IMG/VR virus record: IMGVR_UViG_3300025168_017853 | Span: 1 to 57,093 of that record | Source: a virus | DNA length: 57,093 bases | Direction: 5' to 3' (one strand) | The notes under the pieces: generated by a model | The model's database searches: none | What the model was told of the DNA's origin: nothing | What the model saw: only the letters and a program-made list of their open reading frames with translations | Position numbers and translations under genes: made by a program | Shown: piece after piece, positions 6,877 to 50,555 of the stretch | Layout of the letters: the number at the start of each line of letters is the position of its first letter | Position numbering within the stretch: the first letter of the stretch is position 1

Positions 6877-7166
6877 TATATTGCGCCTATTGCTGCAGCT
6901 GCTTGTTCTCCAGGCAAAAGTATTTTATCGCCTGCTTTAATACTGTCAGCTGACAGTATCTTGGTTAGAGAAGTATCTCCTCCCGACACTCTGCTATTTT
7001 GCATTTTTATTAATTTGTTAATTTGATCTTGAGTTAAAGTTACACCAACAGCGCTACTGTATATTTGAGACAAAGTTTCGCCTTGTTTAACTGTGTGGAC
7101 TGATGTTCTGTCTTCGTTTAACGTTGACTCAACAATTCTTCTAAGTTCTCTTCTAGTAATTTTCAT
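6876..7166 (-). CDS. Tagged LysM-domain protein
   Basis: 96 residues. The N-terminus MKITRRELRRIVESTLNED is the tag, with two (I/L)xE sites. Residues about 22-85 form one LysM repeat: VHTVKQGETLSQI at the start and IKAGDKILLPG at the end. LysM domains bind peptidoglycan N-acetylglucosamine chains. There is no attached catalytic domain. The gene overlaps the endolysin gene upstream (7163-7166), suggesting co-translation. A virion-carried peptidoglycan-binding protein used at entry or lysis is a reasonable inference. The combination of tag and LysM is unusual. Confidence 0.85.
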   Translation of the reverse strand: MKITRRELRRIVESTLNEDRTSVHTVKQGETLSQIYSSAVGVTLTQDQINKLIKMQNSRVSGGDTSLTKILSADSIKAGDKILLPGEQAAAAIGAI

Positions 7167-8056
7167 TTTATTTCCTTTAAAATCTCTTCTATATCTAGGC
7201 CTGCACAGTCAATTTTTTTAGTGCTACAGTGAAAGTGATTCATGAATCCTTTAAATTTGCCAGACGCAGCATTTTTATCATAAGTCCATTTTTCATCAGG
7301 TGCTTCGAGCGGAATACCGCAACCTTCATGCATTGCCTTATAAAGAGCCTTAAGTGCTTCAATCTGGACTGGATAAAACCAAGTAAAATCTTCTACTTTT
7401 CTATTTTGCGCCAGCGCTCCGCTTTTAATTGGTCTTTCACCAAACCCATTTTTCTTGTACCAACTTTGATATTTTGTATAAAAAGCATTGCTTATTTCAA
7501 CTCCAACGGCAGAGTGATTAACTTTAGAATTTCCTGCGTGCCAGCAAGCATCATTCATGTCATGAAGCTGTATAATTGTCCCATCGTTGTCAATGCAAAA
7601 TTGAACTGATACATTTCTTTTTGCAAGCACCCTTGCACAAGACATGCTATTTAAGCAAACATCCCAGTGAGTAACAAAAGATTTTATATCTCTTTTTCTA
7701 CTATACTTTGTTAACCCTTTGCTTATTGGATATGGAAAACCTGCGTCTTTAAATGTGTGAACTTTTTCTGAGGGCCAGTCAATTTTGATAGGGCTATCAT
7801 TCCACCACAAAACATCTGATGAATCTGTTACCCACCCTAACGTATTAATCTTCTGTTCAGCTTCTCGCTCAGAAAGAACTACTCTATACGTACTGGGCCC
7901 ACACATGCCATCCGGAGATAGATTTCTTTCTTTTTGAAAACCTTGAATTGCTAAAGTTAGTTTTTCATCAAAGTCATTGTGACATGGAATAAACCAGTTA
8001 GGTTTCCATCCAAATCGTCTAGCTTGATTTTTGTTATAAGTTTCTTTCCTACCCAT
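7163..8056 (-). CDS. N-acetylmuramoyl-L-alanine amidase endolysin with peptidoglycan-binding domain
   Basis: 297 residues, with AAGAGG upstream of the ATG. Residues about 28-62 look like a PG_binding_1 domain (LTLAIQGFQKERNLSPDGMCG). The rest is an Amidase_2/PGRP-type domain: THWD with zinc ligand His130, ACWHAGNSKVNHSAVGVEI in the middle, and HFHCSTKKIDCAG near the C-terminus giving the second His, the catalytic-type Lys and the Cys ligand, as in T7 lysozyme. The enzyme cuts the amide between muramic acid and L-Ala. No signal peptide is visible, so a holin is needed; holin-like genes lie far away at 24657-24938. A tail-associated lysin is an alternative. Confidence 0.9.
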   Translation of the reverse strand: MGRKETYNKNQARRFGWKPNWFIPCHNDFDEKLTLAIQGFQKERNLSPDGMCGPSTYRVVLSEREAEQKINTLGWVTDSSDVLWWNDSPIKIDWPSEKVHTFKDAGFPYPISKGLTKYSRKRDIKSFVTHWDVCLNSMSCARVLAKRNVSVQFCIDNDGTIIQLHDMNDACWHAGNSKVNHSAVGVEISNAFYTKYQSWYKKNGFGERPIKSGALAQNRKVEDFTWFYPVQIEALKALYKAMHEGCGIPLEAPDEKWTYDKNAASGKFKGFMNHFHCSTKKIDCAGLDIEEILKEIK

Positions 8057-8117: not shown

Positions 8118-8560
8118 TGGTGGACCCGGCGGGAGTCGAACCCGCGTCCGCAATAGTTTCAAAGTTAAGTCATTTACAGGTTTGTCTAATTTACTATCAC
8201 AAATTAGAAAAGATAGCCGGTTTTCCCTGCGCTTACCGACCTGTTGCGCTCCACCAATATTGATTTGACTGTCTTAGCAATTTCTCTCTAAGCGCCACCA
8301 GATTGTACGATTTAAGTCTGTCTGTCTAACCACCGTAGCAATATTGGGTAACCATTTTGATTTTTACAACTGCTCTGTTGTGTTGACTAGATTGGATAGA
8401 AGGCTCTAATCAGCCTCCCGATTATGCCGCTAAGCGGACAGATTCGAAGTGATAATTGTTATTGGCAATTAAGTTTTTGAAACCGCATTTTAGGTCTACT
8501 ATTTCGTGTGACCACCTGCACTCTTATTATTCGCTACTCCGTCGAAGCCGTTTCAGGCCC
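8118..8560 (-). ncRNA. ssrA: tmRNA (transfer-messenger RNA)
   Basis: The 443-base RNA has a tRNA-like end. 5' GGGCCUG pairs with CGGGUCC before an encoded A-CCA end (CCA at 8120-8118). The T arm is GCGGG-UUCGACU-CCCGC, and the 5' side has the typical AACGGCUUCGACGG. Inside is a reading frame starting at GCC 8466 and ending UAA 8422-8424, encoding ANNNYHFESVRLAA, which has the normal LAA protease signal. The middle has pseudoknot-like inverted repeats. It rescues stalled ribosomes with SmpB and tags the nascent protein for proteolysis. It starts 6 bases after the upstream membrane-protein gene, so it is probably processed from a longer transcript. Confidence 0.95.
8422..8466 (-). other. tmRNA tag-peptide reading frame
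   Basis: Resume codon GCC (Ala) followed by 13 codons and UAA. The predicted tag is ANNNYHFESVRLAA. The C-terminal LAA is the ClpXP/SspB-type degron end seen in bacterial tags, while the inner part NNNYHFESVR is distinctive. Confidence 0.88.
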
Positions 8561-8566
8561 ATAATG

Positions 8567-8917
8567 TTATCTATAAACAAACTGTATAAAAATTATCATA
8601 AACGCTAAGATTGTGCATATCAGTGTTTTTGTTGTAAACATTGACTCATTAATGTAGTACCAAGTCATTAGCGGAAATGTCAAGTAAGAAAGAGAAAAAG
8701 AAATAAATCTGGTCGTCCAAAGCTCACCTGTTGCTTCCATAAAATATCTTGATGCATACCAATAAACAAAACCACAAGGAATGCCAAAAACTATATTAGA
8801 AAGTATTGGACGATTTTCCCAAAATGGATAAACAAACTGGAGATTATGAGTGTACCAAGCGAGAACATGACCGCAGATAGCGAGACAAACCCCAATGATA
8901 ATGCTAGAATTAAACAT
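8567..8917 (-). CDS. Small four-helix membrane protein
   Basis: 116 residues with about four hydrophobic segments: near the N-terminus (IIIGVCLAICGHVLAW), around ILSNIVFGIPCGFVYWY, around FISFSLSYLTFPLMTWYY, and at the C-terminus (TLICTILAFMIIFIQFV). No signal peptide, no catalytic motif, no family recognised. It lies directly upstream of the tmRNA, 6 bases apart, so both are likely on one transcript. GGAGG and AAGG precede the ATG. It could be a holin/antiholin-like or superinfection-exclusion protein, but nothing in the sequence decides this. Confidence 0.7.
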   Translation of the reverse strand: MFNSSIIIGVCLAICGHVLAWYTHNLQFVYPFWENRPILSNIVFGIPCGFVYWYASRYFMEATGELWTTRFISFSLSYLTFPLMTWYYINESMFTTKTLICTILAFMIIFIQFVYR

Positions 8918-9128: not shown

Positions 9129-9708
9129 TTTCTATCCCTTTTAAAAACCATTTTGGCGTTTTTGATCTTGGTTCCCATTTAGCAAACCTTACTTTATCTT
9201 TAATGTAATAGTTTCTGTACGAAGCTACAACATCTATTCTATCACAATCTTTGTATATTTTATACTCTTCTTTCATACAAACAGGAAAGTCTGTAAGTAC
9301 GCTATCACTTATGTTTATAGGAAAATTCTTCCTGAGCCATTTTGCTTCTTTTGTAGTCTTGTGAACTCGATGGTAGCGTTTTTGATATTCTTTAAGCAAC
9401 TCTTCACATAATCTAAGCTGCCAATTATAGTTACACACATTTTCTGATGTCCAAAGTGTGCAAGGGTGTCGAGCATGAGTCAACTTCCAAGGCGGTTGCA
9501 AGTCAGGATCTGTGTTTTTATAAAGCCACGCCTGCGCATCTTTTACACGCCTAAAGTCTGTCATCGTCCGGTTGTTATCTTTTAACAAGTGTAGCCAGTG
9601 TGCAGTGCATAACATCTGAGCGCTTTCTAAAATCATCTTAACAACGTGCTTGTTACAATGAAATTTTGCTGCTTCTTTTGTGTCCATCGATAGTATAAAA
9701 GTATTCAT
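9121..9708 (-). CDS. Conserved phage protein of unknown function (CNKHVVKMILE family)
   Basis: 195 residues. Conserved-looking stretches are FHCNKHVVKMILESAQML, LTHARHPCTLWTSEN, LTDFPVCMKEEYK and VASYRNYYI followed by RFAKW. From memory, proteins with this pattern are common in tailed phages, especially marine ones. They are usually left hypothetical, and I recall but cannot confirm a suggestion of a pyrimidine-dimer or DNA-lesion role. Many conserved His, Cys, Trp and Arg residues suggest an enzyme. It is coupled by overlap to the phosphomannomutase-like gene upstream. Confidence 0.78.
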   Translation of the reverse strand: MNTFILSMDTKEAAKFHCNKHVVKMILESAQMLCTAHWLHLLKDNNRTMTDFRRVKDAQAWLYKNTDPDLQPPWKLTHARHPCTLWTSENVCNYNWQLRLCEELLKEYQKRYHRVHKTTKEAKWLRKNFPINISDSVLTDFPVCMKEEYKIYKDCDRIDVVASYRNYYIKDKVRFAKWEPRSKTPKWFLKGIENE

Positions 9709-10508
9709 TAGGTGTTCCTGATGTCGGGCAGGATTAACATTTCAACTATCTTGGTAGTAACCAAAGGATCAGTGGTTGCGTAACTCTGTGTGCATTCTCC
9801 GTCCTTTAAAAGCTGATAAAGTGTGTGATCATTCTGGCCTTCTTCTACAGCATCACCTACAAAAATAATTTCTTTGTACTTAGAAAGATGATTTATTACA
9901 AAAGTTTTGTCCCATCCTTCTGGGTATATATCAAAGCTAGTTGACCCACCTAATGCAACGCAAAGATTAATATCTTTTTTATCTAACGCGTTCTTAAGTT
10001 CTTTAACGTAGTGAACTCTTATCTTTTTTTCCTTGTCACATTCAACCCAAGCATTTCGGGCTGCTGCATCTGCAGCTCTCCCAATTGGGCACCAGTTTAA
10101 CATAGATCCGCGGTAGTGAAAAAAAGTTCCCGTGTAGGGAAGATTATATTTTAATGTTATTAAAAGCTGGAATGATAAAATTGTTTGGAGTAGAAGCTGG
10201 TAGTTTTCTTTGCCTATTTCTTTAATCATGTCTTGGTCAAAGACTTTTTCAAATTTGTTATTTTTCCAAGTGTAATGTTTTGTTCCGTTACAAGGAAAAA
10301 TCTCTACCCTGTCTACTGGAATTCCGCTCAAATCAAACATATCTTTGCATTGCTGCATAACATATTCAAAATCAGAACCAGTCACAATACCAATTTTTGC
10401 AGATGAAGAAAGATCCCTAAGTGCTCTAATCATATCGTGTTGTATTTTTTCTCTTGGTAGAGTTAGTGTTCCGTCCATGTCAAATAAGACAATTTTATTA
10501 TTTTTCAT
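9708..10508 (-). CDS. Eukaryotic-type phosphomannomutase-like HAD protein
   Basis: 266 residues. The HAD nucleophile motif FDMDGTLT has Asp10 and Asp12. The match to the eukaryotic PMM family is long-range: GIVTGSDFEYV, FPCNGTKHY, MLNWCPIGRAA, STSFDIYPEGWDKTFVINHL and FVGDAVEEGQNDHTLY all occur in the expected order. PMM converts mannose 6-phosphate to mannose 1-phosphate on the way to GDP-sugars. Length is slightly above the usual 245-250. The neighbour 10505-10999 is a sugar-phosphate nucleotidyltransferase-like gene with overlapping ends, so the two may act in sequence. The exact substrate is inferred. Plain HAD phosphatase activity is the alternative. Confidence 0.82.
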   Translation of the reverse strand: MKNNKIVLFDMDGTLTLPREKIQHDMIRALRDLSSSAKIGIVTGSDFEYVMQQCKDMFDLSGIPVDRVEIFPCNGTKHYTWKNNKFEKVFDQDMIKEIGKENYQLLLQTILSFQLLITLKYNLPYTGTFFHYRGSMLNWCPIGRAADAAARNAWVECDKEKKIRVHYVKELKNALDKKDINLCVALGGSTSFDIYPEGWDKTFVINHLSKYKEIIFVGDAVEEGQNDHTLYQLLKDGECTQSYATTDPLVTTKIVEMLILPDIRNT

Positions 10509-28158: not shown

Positions 28159-28734
28159 CTAAATTTCAATGTTGGAGTGGTGTCTTAAACACCTTGCTTC
28201 ATACATATCTTCTCCACCAACTTGAATCACATCAGAGTTTGAAAACTCATCTTTTCTCATTGTGTAAGAAGCATCTGATCCGCAGACAGTACATACTGCC
28301 TTGCATTTTTTTATTTTTGTTGCGTGTCCTAAGAGTGTACATACTTCTTCAAATGAAGAAAGTGAAGAAGAAAGATCTAATGTCGATACTAAAACGTCTA
28401 TTCTTTTATCATAGAAGAAATTCAAACATACATTTGCAATGTCATCAATCATAAAAGCTTCGTCAATCGCTATCGCATCAGGTAACTCTTTATCTTTAAA
28501 AAAATCTAGAATGTCCTGACCTGTACTTATTAAGACACAAGGAACTTTATTTCCTCCATGTGTTACAATAAATCCTTCTTGAGTGTACCTGTTGTCCATC
28601 TTTGGCTTAAAACACACGATATCTTTCTTAGCAAACTTATATCTATCTACCTGCTGAAGTAATCTTGTAGATTTTCCACTAAACATCGGTCCAACATACA
28701 GGTTTAAGTTATGAATCATTTTAGTTGCCACCAT
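28159..28734 (-). CDS. tdk: Thymidine kinase (type II)
   Basis: 191 residues. P-loop GPMFSGKS at residues 15-22, the lasso/AIDEAFMIDD Walker B region, and a zinc site: CTVC in KCKAVCTVCGS and a C-terminal Cys/His in YEARCLRHH. It phosphorylates thymidine to dTMP. A normal, short type II kinase. It overlaps the epimerase gene upstream by 19 bases. An alternative start exists at the internal Met (MIHNLNLYVG), five residues in, which would reduce the overlap. Confidence 0.92.
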   Translation of the reverse strand: MVATKMIHNLNLYVGPMFSGKSTRLLQQVDRYKFAKKDIVCFKPKMDNRYTQEGFIVTHGGNKVPCVLISTGQDILDFFKDKELPDAIAIDEAFMIDDIANVCLNFFYDKRIDVLVSTLDLSSSLSSFEEVCTLLGHATKIKKCKAVCTVCGSDASYTMRKDEFSNSDVIQVGGEDMYEARCLRHHSNIEI

Positions 28735-29774
28735 CGAATTGTTTCTTCAAGACCTTCCCAGAAAGTTACCAATGGCTTATAACCCAACTCCGCAGTTGTT
28801 CTCGAAAGATCAGCAAGCGTGTGCTTGACATCGCCTATGCGCTCAGGTGTGTGTTCGACTTTAACATTAAAGTTTTCTTTGAAAAAGTTTAGAATATCAT
28901 TGTTTGACACACTAGTACCACAAGCAACGTTATAACATCTTCCTCTAAACCCAGACGGACCGAATCCGTGCTGATCTGAGTTTGCTGCTAAAATGTTTGC
29001 GTGAACTACATTATCAATGTAGCACATATCTCTTGTTTGCTCGCCATCACCGTCTGACCTTAACGGAAGATTATTTTTTGTAGCATGACACCACGCAGCC
29101 ACTGCTGTAGAGTAAGGTGAGTCACCTAGCTGACCCGGCCCGAAGACGTTAAAGTACCGAAGGCACACAATGTCAATATCATAAAGATCGCATGCCATTT
29201 TTGCGTAGTCTTCTATAGCAAACTTTTGCCAAGCATATGGTGATTTAGGAAGAATTCTTCCGCGCTCGTATTCATGTGTGGGCCTTGACTCTGCTCCGCC
29301 ATACACAGAAGAAGATGAAGCCCAAACAATTCTTTTGACATGACCTGCCGCAGCTTCAAAAAGCATAACTGTTTTTAATATATTTTCAGAAGTTGTTTCT
29401 GAAGGATTTTCAACAGAGTATGAAACTCTAGGAATTGCAGCTTCATGAAATATTACATCGTAGCTGTCGAAAGTAATATGGTCTAACATTCCTTGTGATG
29501 CCAGGTCATCTTGTATTACAAGAATTGTGTCTTTTCCTCTTTCTTCAAATTGAACAGGTGACACATTTGCTTGTCCGGTTGGGCCAAGCGATCTATAAAA
29601 ATGAGAAATAAAGTCACTGCTAGGAAGTACTCTTGTTTTTTGATCAGCAAGCGATTCTAGACTGCCGCCTGTCATGTTGTCAACAACGTCGACAAGCCAC
29701 CCTTCCGATACTAGTTTTTTTGCAATGCTGGATCCAATAAACCCACAGCCACCTGTAACTAAAGCCCTTTTCAT
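28716..29774 (-). CDS. NAD-dependent sugar epimerase/dehydratase
   Basis: 352 residues of the extended SDR family. Rossmann motif GGCGFIGS near the N-terminus, then SSSSVYGG and the catalytic SPYAWQKFA (Tyr...Lys). FNVFGPGQ follows, typical of UDP-glucose/galactose epimerase-like proteins. Acts on nucleotide sugars. A second member at 35731-36747 and the PMM/HldE-like pair suggest a nucleotide-sugar pathway for glycan synthesis. Exact substrate unknown. Confidence 0.9.
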   Translation of the reverse strand: MKRALVTGGCGFIGSSIAKKLVSEGWLVDVVDNMTGGSLESLADQKTRVLPSSDFISHFYRSLGPTGQANVSPVQFEERGKDTILVIQDDLASQGMLDHITFDSYDVIFHEAAIPRVSYSVENPSETTSENILKTVMLFEAAAGHVKRIVWASSSSVYGGAESRPTHEYERGRILPKSPYAWQKFAIEDYAKMACDLYDIDIVCLRYFNVFGPGQLGDSPYSTAVAAWCHATKNNLPLRSDGDGEQTRDMCYIDNVVHANILAANSDQHGFGPSGFRGRCYNVACGTSVSNNDILNFFKENFNVKVEHTPERIGDVKHTLADLSRTTAELGYKPLVTFWEGLEETIRWWQLK

Positions 29775-35730: not shown

Positions 35731-36747
35731 CTAATAAAAATCCGTCAAATCAACACCTTTTTCTTTTGCTTCTTCAAGATGTTCGAGTGGGTTGTAATCT
35801 TTACTCTCTTTGATTTCTTTGACAGTTCGCCTAATACCCACCTCAAGAGATATTTTAGGCTCCCATCTTGAGTACCTTCGAAACTTAGCTGAAGAGAGCC
35901 TGTGATTACCTAGATAGTCTGTCTTAGGGTGCCATTCAAGAACTTCTTCGATACCTTCGCCTCCTAGTTCTTCCACAAGTATTTTTTGTAGCATATTCAT
36001 GATTTCACCTGTATTTAGCGGAGTCTCGGAGGCAACATTCCAGTCATCATTCCATAATCCTTGTTTAATTGCTGTTAAAACAGCATCACAGTAATCATCA
36101 ACATGCATGTAATCTTTAATCTTCTCTTGATCAAGAAACATATCGATGCCTTTCTTTCCGTTTAAATAGCCAAAAGTTGTCTTAGCAATAAGTGAATTCA
36201 TGTCGCCTACGCCTCCGTAAGCAAAAAGTGGCCGAACAATCATCCACTTCTTCCCTGTCTGGCTTTTGACAATATCTTCAGCACAAAGTTTTTGACAGCC
36301 ATAGAGTGTTGTTGGACCTTTAATTGAAGTCTCAGTTATAGATGCGTCTTGATACTTAGCAACGTCATATATGACAGTTGTGCCCATGTAACATACAGGA
36401 ATACCTAAGCGCTTTGCTGCCCGACAAATATTATAAGTGCCTGCTACATTGGTAAGTGTTGCTTCTGTGGGATTTAGCGCGACGACATCAGTTCCTACCG
36501 TCGCAGCATTATGAATAACAACTTCTGTTTTTGTCCTAAAGAAGAATTCTACCCAATGTTCAATTGAGTTTCTGTGAACACAAAGCTCTTCTTCTTCGTG
36601 AAAAGTATACTTAAGATTAGCTTTCTCTATAAAGTCGAAGTGCGTCGCAACTGTTGAAGACGGTATATGTGAAAACTCAAACTCTGGAAGTTTTTTAACA
36701 AGGTTTCTTCCAATAAAACCTTTTTCACCTGTGATGAATATTTTCAT
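35731..36747 (-). CDS. NAD-dependent epimerase/dehydratase, second copy
   Basis: 338 residues, extended SDR. GEKGFIGRNL at the N-terminus, VVIHNAATVGTD in the middle, YMGTTVIYD as the Ser/Thr position, and the catalytic Tyr-Lys pair in TTLYGCQKLCAEDIV. YMHVDDYCDAV and the final DLTDFY follow. It acts on nucleotide sugars; specificity unknown. Distinct from the copy at 28716-29774 and probably another step in the pathway. It directly follows, in transcription order, the tagged protein at 36848-37810. Confidence 0.88.
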   Translation of the reverse strand: MKIFITGEKGFIGRNLVKKLPEFEFSHIPSSTVATHFDFIEKANLKYTFHEEEELCVHRNSIEHWVEFFFRTKTEVVIHNAATVGTDVVALNPTEATLTNVAGTYNICRAAKRLGIPVCYMGTTVIYDVAKYQDASITETSIKGPTTLYGCQKLCAEDIVKSQTGKKWMIVRPLFAYGGVGDMNSLIAKTTFGYLNGKKGIDMFLDQEKIKDYMHVDDYCDAVLTAIKQGLWNDDWNVASETPLNTGEIMNMLQKILVEELGGEGIEEVLEWHPKTDYLGNHRLSSAKFRRYSRWEPKISLEVGIRRTVKEIKESKDYNPLEHLEEAKEKGVDLTDFY

Positions 36748-49952: not shown

Positions 49953-50555
49953 CTAGTCAAAATCAATACTTACATCAATTTTAACATTAATCTTTGGAAT
50001 TCGAGTATGATTAATTATTCCAATGCTTTTGCATTCATCTGCCTCTAAAAACCAGTCAGCGTGCCCTCTTTTGTGAATTTCTTTTAAGAAGTAGTCTTCT
50101 GGCTTTCCGCAGTTTTGAGCCATAATTTTAAAAATCTTTTTATTTAATCTGTCTGTTTCAGCTGCTGATGCTTTTACTTCTTCATTTTTACCATGCTGTC
50201 CTGATGCTACATCATGAATCATTACAGTTGCGTCTGGATCCATGTATCTCATTCCCGCCTCACCGCAAGTTAATAAAACAGCACCACATGACATTGCCTT
50301 ACCCTCAGTAATTGTTGCAACAGGAAGCGGTGATGCCCTTATTGTTGCAAGCATAGACATAAGAGAATAAACTTGACCTCCGTATGAGTCTATAACAACA
50401 GGAATTACTTTTTGACCTGTATTCTGAGCCATTGAAAACTTGTTTCTAAAGTCTTCTGCTGACTGCTCATCAAACTTATTTACTGTAACAATAATTGGAT
50501 TGTTAGATAGTTCAAACTCTTTTAGTAGATTTGACGCTTCAAATTTCCATAACAT
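49953..50555 (-). CDS. ClpP-family (S14) serine protease
   Basis: 200 residues. The catalytic Ser89 is in EGKAMSCGAVLLTCGEAG, His114 in TVMIHDVASGQ, and Asp167 is likely in GHADWFLEADE; SIGIINH follows as in ClpP. N-terminal VIDSYGGQVYSLMSML is the usual substrate-binding strand region. ClpP forms a barrel with an unfoldase. In phages S14 proteins also serve as prohead proteases. Here it precedes the replication genes and is not beside capsid genes, so a head role is uncertain. It could help process tagged proteins. Confidence 0.9.
   Translation of the reverse strand: MLWKFEASNLLKEFELSNNPIIVTVNKFDEQSAEDFRNKFSMAQNTGQKVIPVVIDSYGGQVYSLMSMLATIRASPLPVATITEGKAMSCGAVLLTCGEAGMRYMDPDATVMIHDVASGQHGKNEEVKASAAETDRLNKKIFKIMAQNCGKPEDYFLKEIHKRGHADWFLEADECKSIGIINHTRIPKINVKIDVSIDFD

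Follow-up and report, generated by a model that had tools for sequence, protein, structure and literature searches.

Does this viral locus encode a working tmRNA with a tag of its own, and what is the long segment at the centre of its RNA? The window, meaning the whole stretch of DNA analysed here, is a virus record of 57,093 bases in IMG/VR, which lists it as linear; it is therefore probably a fragment. Its gene content includes a DnaE-type polymerase, a B12-dependent ribonucleotide reductase, a DnaB-like helicase, a UvsX-like recombinase and GroEL, and the record is likely to be a fragment of a large unclassified phage without close isolates. Phage tmRNAs are already known from mycobacteriophages and Bacillus phage G (PMC4131195), and huge phages with both tmRNA and SmpB have been described (Al-Shayeb et al. 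2020, PMC7162821). An earlier note, made from the sequence alone, had claimed a complete phage tmRNA with a distinct tag at this place and had called such genes rare, which is correct for isolated phages (tmRNA in 402 of 18,146 genomes; PMC9004378). The features of the locus are the following.

8118..8560, minus strand: one-piece tmRNA (ssrA) gene of 443 nt, matched by Rfam RF00023
8554..8560, minus strand: 5' strand of the acceptor stem, GGGCCTG, pairing with 8122-8128 and including a G3-U70 wobble
8479..8513, minus strand: pseudoknot PK1, with compensatory changes in both stems
8422..8466, minus strand: tag reading frame from GCC to TAA, ANNNYHFESVRLAA, based on its translation and a third-position excess of changes
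8385..8418, minus strand: pseudoknot PK2, GGAGGCT/AGCCTTC and GATTAG/CTAGTC, based on pair counts
8254..8347, minus strand: three-way-junction RNA module in place of the short PK3 hairpin, based on copies elsewhere, pair counts and covariance model R2
8118..8160, minus strand: 3' part of the tRNA-like domain, with T arm GCGGG-TTCGACT-CCCGC, acceptor 3' strand and encoded CCA, read from the sequence
8567..8917, minus strand: membrane-like open reading frame of 116 aa from the ORF list, 6 nt upstream of the tmRNA and on the same strand
7163..8056, minus strand: N-acetylmuramoyl-L-alanine amidase (endolysin; Pfam Amidase_2, 2e-14), 61 nt downstream of the tmRNA

The covariance model RF00023 matches the window from 8560 to 8118 on the minus strand, over its full length (model positions 1-374 of 374), with 90.6 bits and an E-value of 6e-34 against a gathering score of 47 bits. 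The acceptor stem has 7 bp (GGGCCTG/CGGGTCC) and contains G3-U70, the alanine identity element. With its full-length score, tRNA-like domain, tag frame, PK1 and PK2, the window RNA is a member of the tmRNA family RF00023. ARAGORN found no tmRNA in the window. A two-piece permuted tmRNA is ruled out, since the order 5' acceptor, tag, 3' acceptor is that of a one-piece molecule; RF04321 (two-piece tmRNA) gave no match to the window, and its partial matches, seen in some of the relatives, are confined to the 5' half.

Relatives were found by several routes. With a pattern taken from the tRNA-like 3' end, 12 viral contigs were retrieved; 11 of them have a one-piece tmRNA within the fetched DNA, and the tmRNA of the twelfth (L012) runs across the edge of the DNA that was fetched. 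Searches of whole records placed 43 virus records above the Rfam cut-off for tmRNA, and an amidase-based search added 10 further tmRNA contigs. About 53 other viral contigs, of up to 293 kb, carry a tmRNA.

Pairs in the acceptor stem, P2, PK1, PK2 and the T-stem were counted over an alignment of 27 viral tmRNAs (A1); PK3 and PK4 were left out because the length of that region varies. In total, 92.7% of cells were paired, and sliding the partners by one column reduced pairing to 50%. Double-change cells numbered 138 versus 46.6 after shuffling, a score reached in none of 500 shuffles. Compensatory changes support all five elements: both sides have changed at 6/6 pairs of the second PK2 stem (27 sequences), the T-stem pairs are kept at 100% with double changes in 4/5, and the acceptor G3-U pair is present in 27/27 viral relatives. 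The gene, its fold, its tag and its conservation are shown, and the earlier reading of acceptor stem, T arm, encoded CCA and a resume frame with an LAA end held, with the correction that the gene lies on the minus strand.

The tag frame starts with GCC at RNA position 95 (window 8466) and stops at TAA. We compared 18 distinct tag sequences from relatives that had been fetched without using the tag. In tag codons 1-8, codon positions 1, 2 and 3 differ at 0.121, 0.116 and 0.479; this third-position excess is as expected of a translated tag under purifying selection. Every tag tabulated has the UA at -5/-4 of its resume codon, and the C terminus of viral tags is always [L/Q/I/V]AA. Nearly all viral tags fit ANNNx[H/Y/N/F][F/Y][D/E]; the first-fetched viral contigs include ANNNYHFEAARLAA and ANNNNHFDSVRLAA, with ANDNGTVAQRLAA of L006 as an exception, and the tag of L011 is identical to that of the window.

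A degenerate tag pattern matched 41 viral contigs. Scanned once against 84,980 species of bacteria and archaea, the same pattern had a single match (L049), on a 4.7-kb contig of a Flavobacteriales metagenome-assembled genome. One of its ORFs matches a PHROG phosphohydrolase and the rest match nothing; the contig is likely, though not proven, to be of viral origin. Tags of 30 sampled Bacteroidota tmRNAs are different and have 9-10 aa (e.g., GEYNYALAA, ANDYSYAMAA), except for one odd 14-residue ARAGORN call. We regard the viral tags as a new class. The motif is almost exclusively viral. As to the proposal that the tag might be tuned to the phage cycle or host-derived and diverged, recent capture from a host is disfavoured by this distribution, and tuning to the phage cycle stays possible, without data that test it. 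Host assignment was also tried through NrdJ, DNA polymerase, GroEL, helicase and amidase and was abandoned: even the closest known phages are remote, reaching no more than about 49% identity, and their hosts are mixed.

Identity along the molecule is uneven. The ends, PK1 and tag of the window tmRNA share 81-96% identity with L009/L011 versus 60-77% with L183/L187, whereas the PK3-PK4 centre shares 88-99% with L183/L187, its last part also being 87% identical to L011. From this comparison we infer that the window tmRNA is a mosaic and that viral tmRNAs exchange parts.

At 443 nt, the window tmRNA is unusually long compared with the 329-408 nt of most relatives; the excess comes from an insert of about 90 nt (8254-8347) that the earlier note overlooked. 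More specifically, a 94-nt segment replaces the apical hairpin of the PK3 region (e.g., ACCCTGGAAACAGGT in L013) in the window, L118/L119 and L123, and the Rfam alignment of the window tmRNA places the PK3 helix around it. ARAGORN misses the tmRNAs of all of these, as well as those of L185/L186, which carry a different insert.

The segment also exists outside tmRNAs. A 21-nt piece searched against IMG/VR retrieved tmRNAs and three contigs (L201, L202, L205) in which the module lies between tRNA-Arg and tRNA-Met genes; no tmRNA was found in these three records. Two further scans located it after the major head protein gene in two contigs (L216, L217), where it precedes a terminator-like hairpin plus T-run, and between tRNA-Asn and tRNA-Leu genes in three phage contigs of up to 290 kb (L222, L223, L225). 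Six contigs in total thus carry the module as a separate unit among tRNA genes, 3-19 nt from the neighbouring tRNAs and on the same strand, like an extra unit of the array. Each carrier record has one copy, and 8 of 50 virus records tested carry the module. The last pattern scan also returned L218-L221 and L224, five chance matches that were rejected, since they lack the P2 core and the module fold. The module was found in 0 of 296 Bacteroidota genomes, a scan without positive control and so uninformative.

The module, 79-94 nt long, consists of a closing helix P1, a helix P2 (UACGGU/AUCGUA) with a loop ending in CUUAA, a helix P3 (AUCUGGUG/CA-G-UCAGAU) and a tip hairpin. In the window these are P1 CCAATATTG/CAATATTGG, P2 TACGGT/ATCGTA, P3 ATCTGGTG/CA-G-TCAAAT and tip CTTAG/CTAAG. 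Minimum-energy folds of the copies in L201, L183, L216 and L223 give an identical three-way junction; the window copy and L222, folded singly, come out somewhat differently. Single-sequence fold Z-scores are weak (-0.3 to -1.5, and +0.5 for L216), and the structure therefore rests on comparison. In an alignment of nine copies (A3), which represent only about five independent lineages, 96.8% of cells are paired, with 32 double-change cells versus 10.9 after shuffling (0/500). Compensatory changes occur in 6/7 P1 pairs and 5/5 tip pairs. The core is invariant over the three genomic contexts, P3 almost so, and P2 and P3 together nearly so.

Covariance model R2, trained on nothing but the four tRNA-array copies, recovers the window insert (8256-8345) at 46.9 bits (E 8e-12). 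It also recovers the capsid-context copies, at about 39 bits (E 2e-9), and across 383 kb nothing else falls below E 0.1. Searches of Rfam 15 at relaxed thresholds with the window insert and the L201 and L223 copies gave no credible match. We rejected a tRNA or intron-bearing tRNA, as ARAGORN finds none whether or not introns are allowed, and a group I intron, whose core exceeds 200 nt against 79-94 nt here and for which there is no Rfam match. No description of the module was found in the literature searched, most subscription journals being outside its scope. We consider the grafting of the module to be new, and likewise the module, which is a candidate RNA family.

A different insert is seen in the 485-nt viral tmRNA at L185 1501-1985 (and in L186), whose tag is ANNNFHFESAALAA: about 117 nt at PK3, with a 7-bp closing stem AAGTGTG/CACACTT beside a T-arm-like hairpin GCAGG-TGCGAAT-CCTGC. 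This insert gives no match to model R1, and for this reason the PK3 hairpin looks like an insertion hot spot.

The partners that trans-translation would require were searched for in the viral records. No SmpB gene (PF01668) is present in the window record, as the earlier note had observed, nor in any of the 47 virus records tested, window included; the search of the others covered 45 virus records and phage Phass-1, all without it. An SmpB gene elsewhere in these genomes may still exist, as the window and its relatives are mostly fragments. An SspB adaptor was looked for and none was found. Separately, the window encodes a ClpP-like serine protease at 49953-50555, next to the gene for ribonucleotide reductase; its catalytic residues Ser-His-Asp are present. 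We rejected this protein as a dedicated partner of the tag: it is equally common without tmRNA (19/30 records, mostly tmRNA-bearing, versus 12/14 tmRNA-less relatives) and may be a head maturation protease, the group with which PHROGs ranks it. That a special protease serves the viral tag is speculation.

Taken together, the best overall explanation, which we consider likely, is a working phage tmRNA in which an autonomous module replaces the PK3 hairpin. In this model the tmRNA of a large lytic phage would be co-transcribed between the genes for a small membrane protein and the endolysin and processed as a tRNA is. Host AlaRS would charge it with alanine via G3-U70, and host SmpB and EF-Tu would deliver it to ribosomes that have stalled on broken mRNA; there it would add A-ANNNYHFESVRLAA and send the product to a protease recognising the C-terminal LAA. 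During infection the viral tmRNA would supplement or replace that of the host, whose tag differs; the phage would gain ribosome rescue as host mRNA is degraded, the products would receive the viral tag, and the tmRNA would provide a stable and abundant scaffold for the module. Transcription, charging, tagging, proteolysis, a stable RNA and the use of SmpB are all inferred, there being no expression data. Because the tmRNA parts are conserved, ordinary trans-translation with host SmpB and AlaRS is most likely; the fit with these host factors is itself only inferred, the host being unidentified, and the insert could possibly impair the tmRNA.

For the module, the places where it occurs (tRNA arrays, tmRNA and a capsid transcript) and its invariant core point to an autonomous RNA that has a binding or catalytic function and is carried on stable RNAs. 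Our preferred guess, a tentative one, is that it may bind a host or phage factor as a decoy or aptamer, and a processing ribozyme is the main alternative. A bolder reading, which we would neither favour nor discount, is that the module founds a new class of small phage RNAs, three-way junctions whose core is invariant, expressed as a further unit of tRNA arrays, after capsid genes, or grafted as a functional domain into a tmRNA to which it would give a second function as decoy, sensor or ribozyme.

Two rival explanations concern the tmRNA as a whole, and both appear very unlikely. The RNA could be a decoy, decayed or TLD-only, which blocks host trans-translation by titrating SmpB, a role proposed for mycobacteriophage DS6A; TLD-only phage molecules are known (PMC4131195), and the window RNA does bear a large insert. 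However, it is full-length, every helix tested covaries, and its tag frame is under purifying selection with a conserved [LQIV]AA end, whereas a decoy would not need a tag. The gene could instead be a recent copy of a host ssrA, its tag merely reporting the host. Streptomyces phage tags resemble actinobacterial tags, and those annotated (ANSNVASAYALAA and ANSKFAFALAA) differ from that of the window; moreover, the single prokaryote match lies in a Flavobacteriales assembly. Against this, that match is one in 84,980 species and sits on a 4.7-kb contig, the sampled Bacteroidota tags differ in sequence and length apart from the one odd call, and dozens of diverse viral contigs share the motif and show mosaic exchange among them.

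Two others concern the insert. It could be a meaningless expansion of a tolerated loop, its likeness to the array units reflecting neutral spread, and other unrelated inserts do occur at that hairpin (L185, L005, L082). We find this improbable, as the core is invariant in three contexts, the P1 and tip helices have been replaced with compensation, and R2, never trained on tmRNA copies, finds the insert. Less probable still is an element that cleaves itself or serves in processing, and that either divides the tmRNA into two pieces at the PK3 region or is excised once transcribed. The module does lie in precursors that need processing (the tmRNA, and tRNA arrays at 3-19 nt from the tRNAs), it is a compact three-way junction with an invariant core, and two-piece tmRNAs exist; but no ribozyme in Rfam 15 matches it, the long closing helix P1 would keep both ends together, and tRNA arrays are normally processed without it.

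With bacterial one-piece ssrA (RF00023), the window RNA shares the tRNA-like domain with G3-U70, P2, PK1, a tag frame with an AA end, PK2, the T arm and CCA; it differs in the viral tag class, in the unrelated module that takes the place of the apical PK3 hairpin, and in its 443 nt. Isolate phage tmRNAs (Mycobacterium phages Bxz1 and Wildcat, Bacillus phage G, Streptomyces BE-cluster phages and Melnitz-like marine myophages) are also complete ssrA genes, usually without SmpB, although the Streptomyces tags are unlike that of the window and the Melnitz tmRNA is two-piece. Searching isolate records with the window tmRNA gave no match beyond the tRNA-like end. SmpB was reported in the huge phages of PMC7162821, in contrast to the 47 records here. 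That survey relied on ARAGORN, and surveys of this kind will have missed insert-bearing tmRNAs like that of the window, although the insert has not been shown by deletion to cause the miss. GOLLD and ROOL are likewise structured phage RNAs of unknown role among tRNA genes, near which they are often found. They are several hundred nt long, whereas the module measures 79-94 nt, is unmatched in Rfam and is found within a tmRNA as well. With a tmRNA clade that is carried by viruses and has a tag of its own, phages may redirect the products of stalled ribosomes away from host tagging rules, and the function of a compact, conserved phage RNA without Rfam match, grafted into a tmRNA, can be tested by ordinary RNA biochemistry.

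Several further observations were made on the neighbourhood and on other viral tmRNAs. The closest amidases (73-84% identity; L118, L121, L123) have a tmRNA just upstream. A pattern scan for homologues of the 116-aa ORF found none, and reading the sequence of L123 revealed a similar ORF at the corresponding place. The tmRNA gene of L123 (3497-3929) ends in CTA rather than CCA after the discriminator, so that CCA would need enzymatic addition. At L083 973-1312 (identical in L084, L085 and L086), the T loop is not TTCGANN and the stem is CCGG around GGCAGTA, with acceptor, CCA and tag ANNNYHYDNVALAA intact. Phass-1 (L087; OQ749652.1 92139-92577) has a tmRNA-like match of 77.9 bits in an unannotated gap, in which no AA-ended tag was recognised. 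In the isolate phages QDWS595, Moby, BUCT628 and XacN1 (L212-L215), ARAGORN calls permuted tmRNAs, unannotated at the place shown, with tags ANDNVYAAAA, VAANDDSYTVRIAA, ANDNVFGAKTLAA and ANANTFDYALAA, respectively. Within the window, a phosphomannomutase-like gene (9708-10508; Pfam PMM, eukaryotic type) lies near the tmRNA, the phage GroEL (14142-15743) has about 40% identity to other phage chaperonins, and genes of nucleotide-sugar epimerase type are located at 28716-29774 and 35731-36747.
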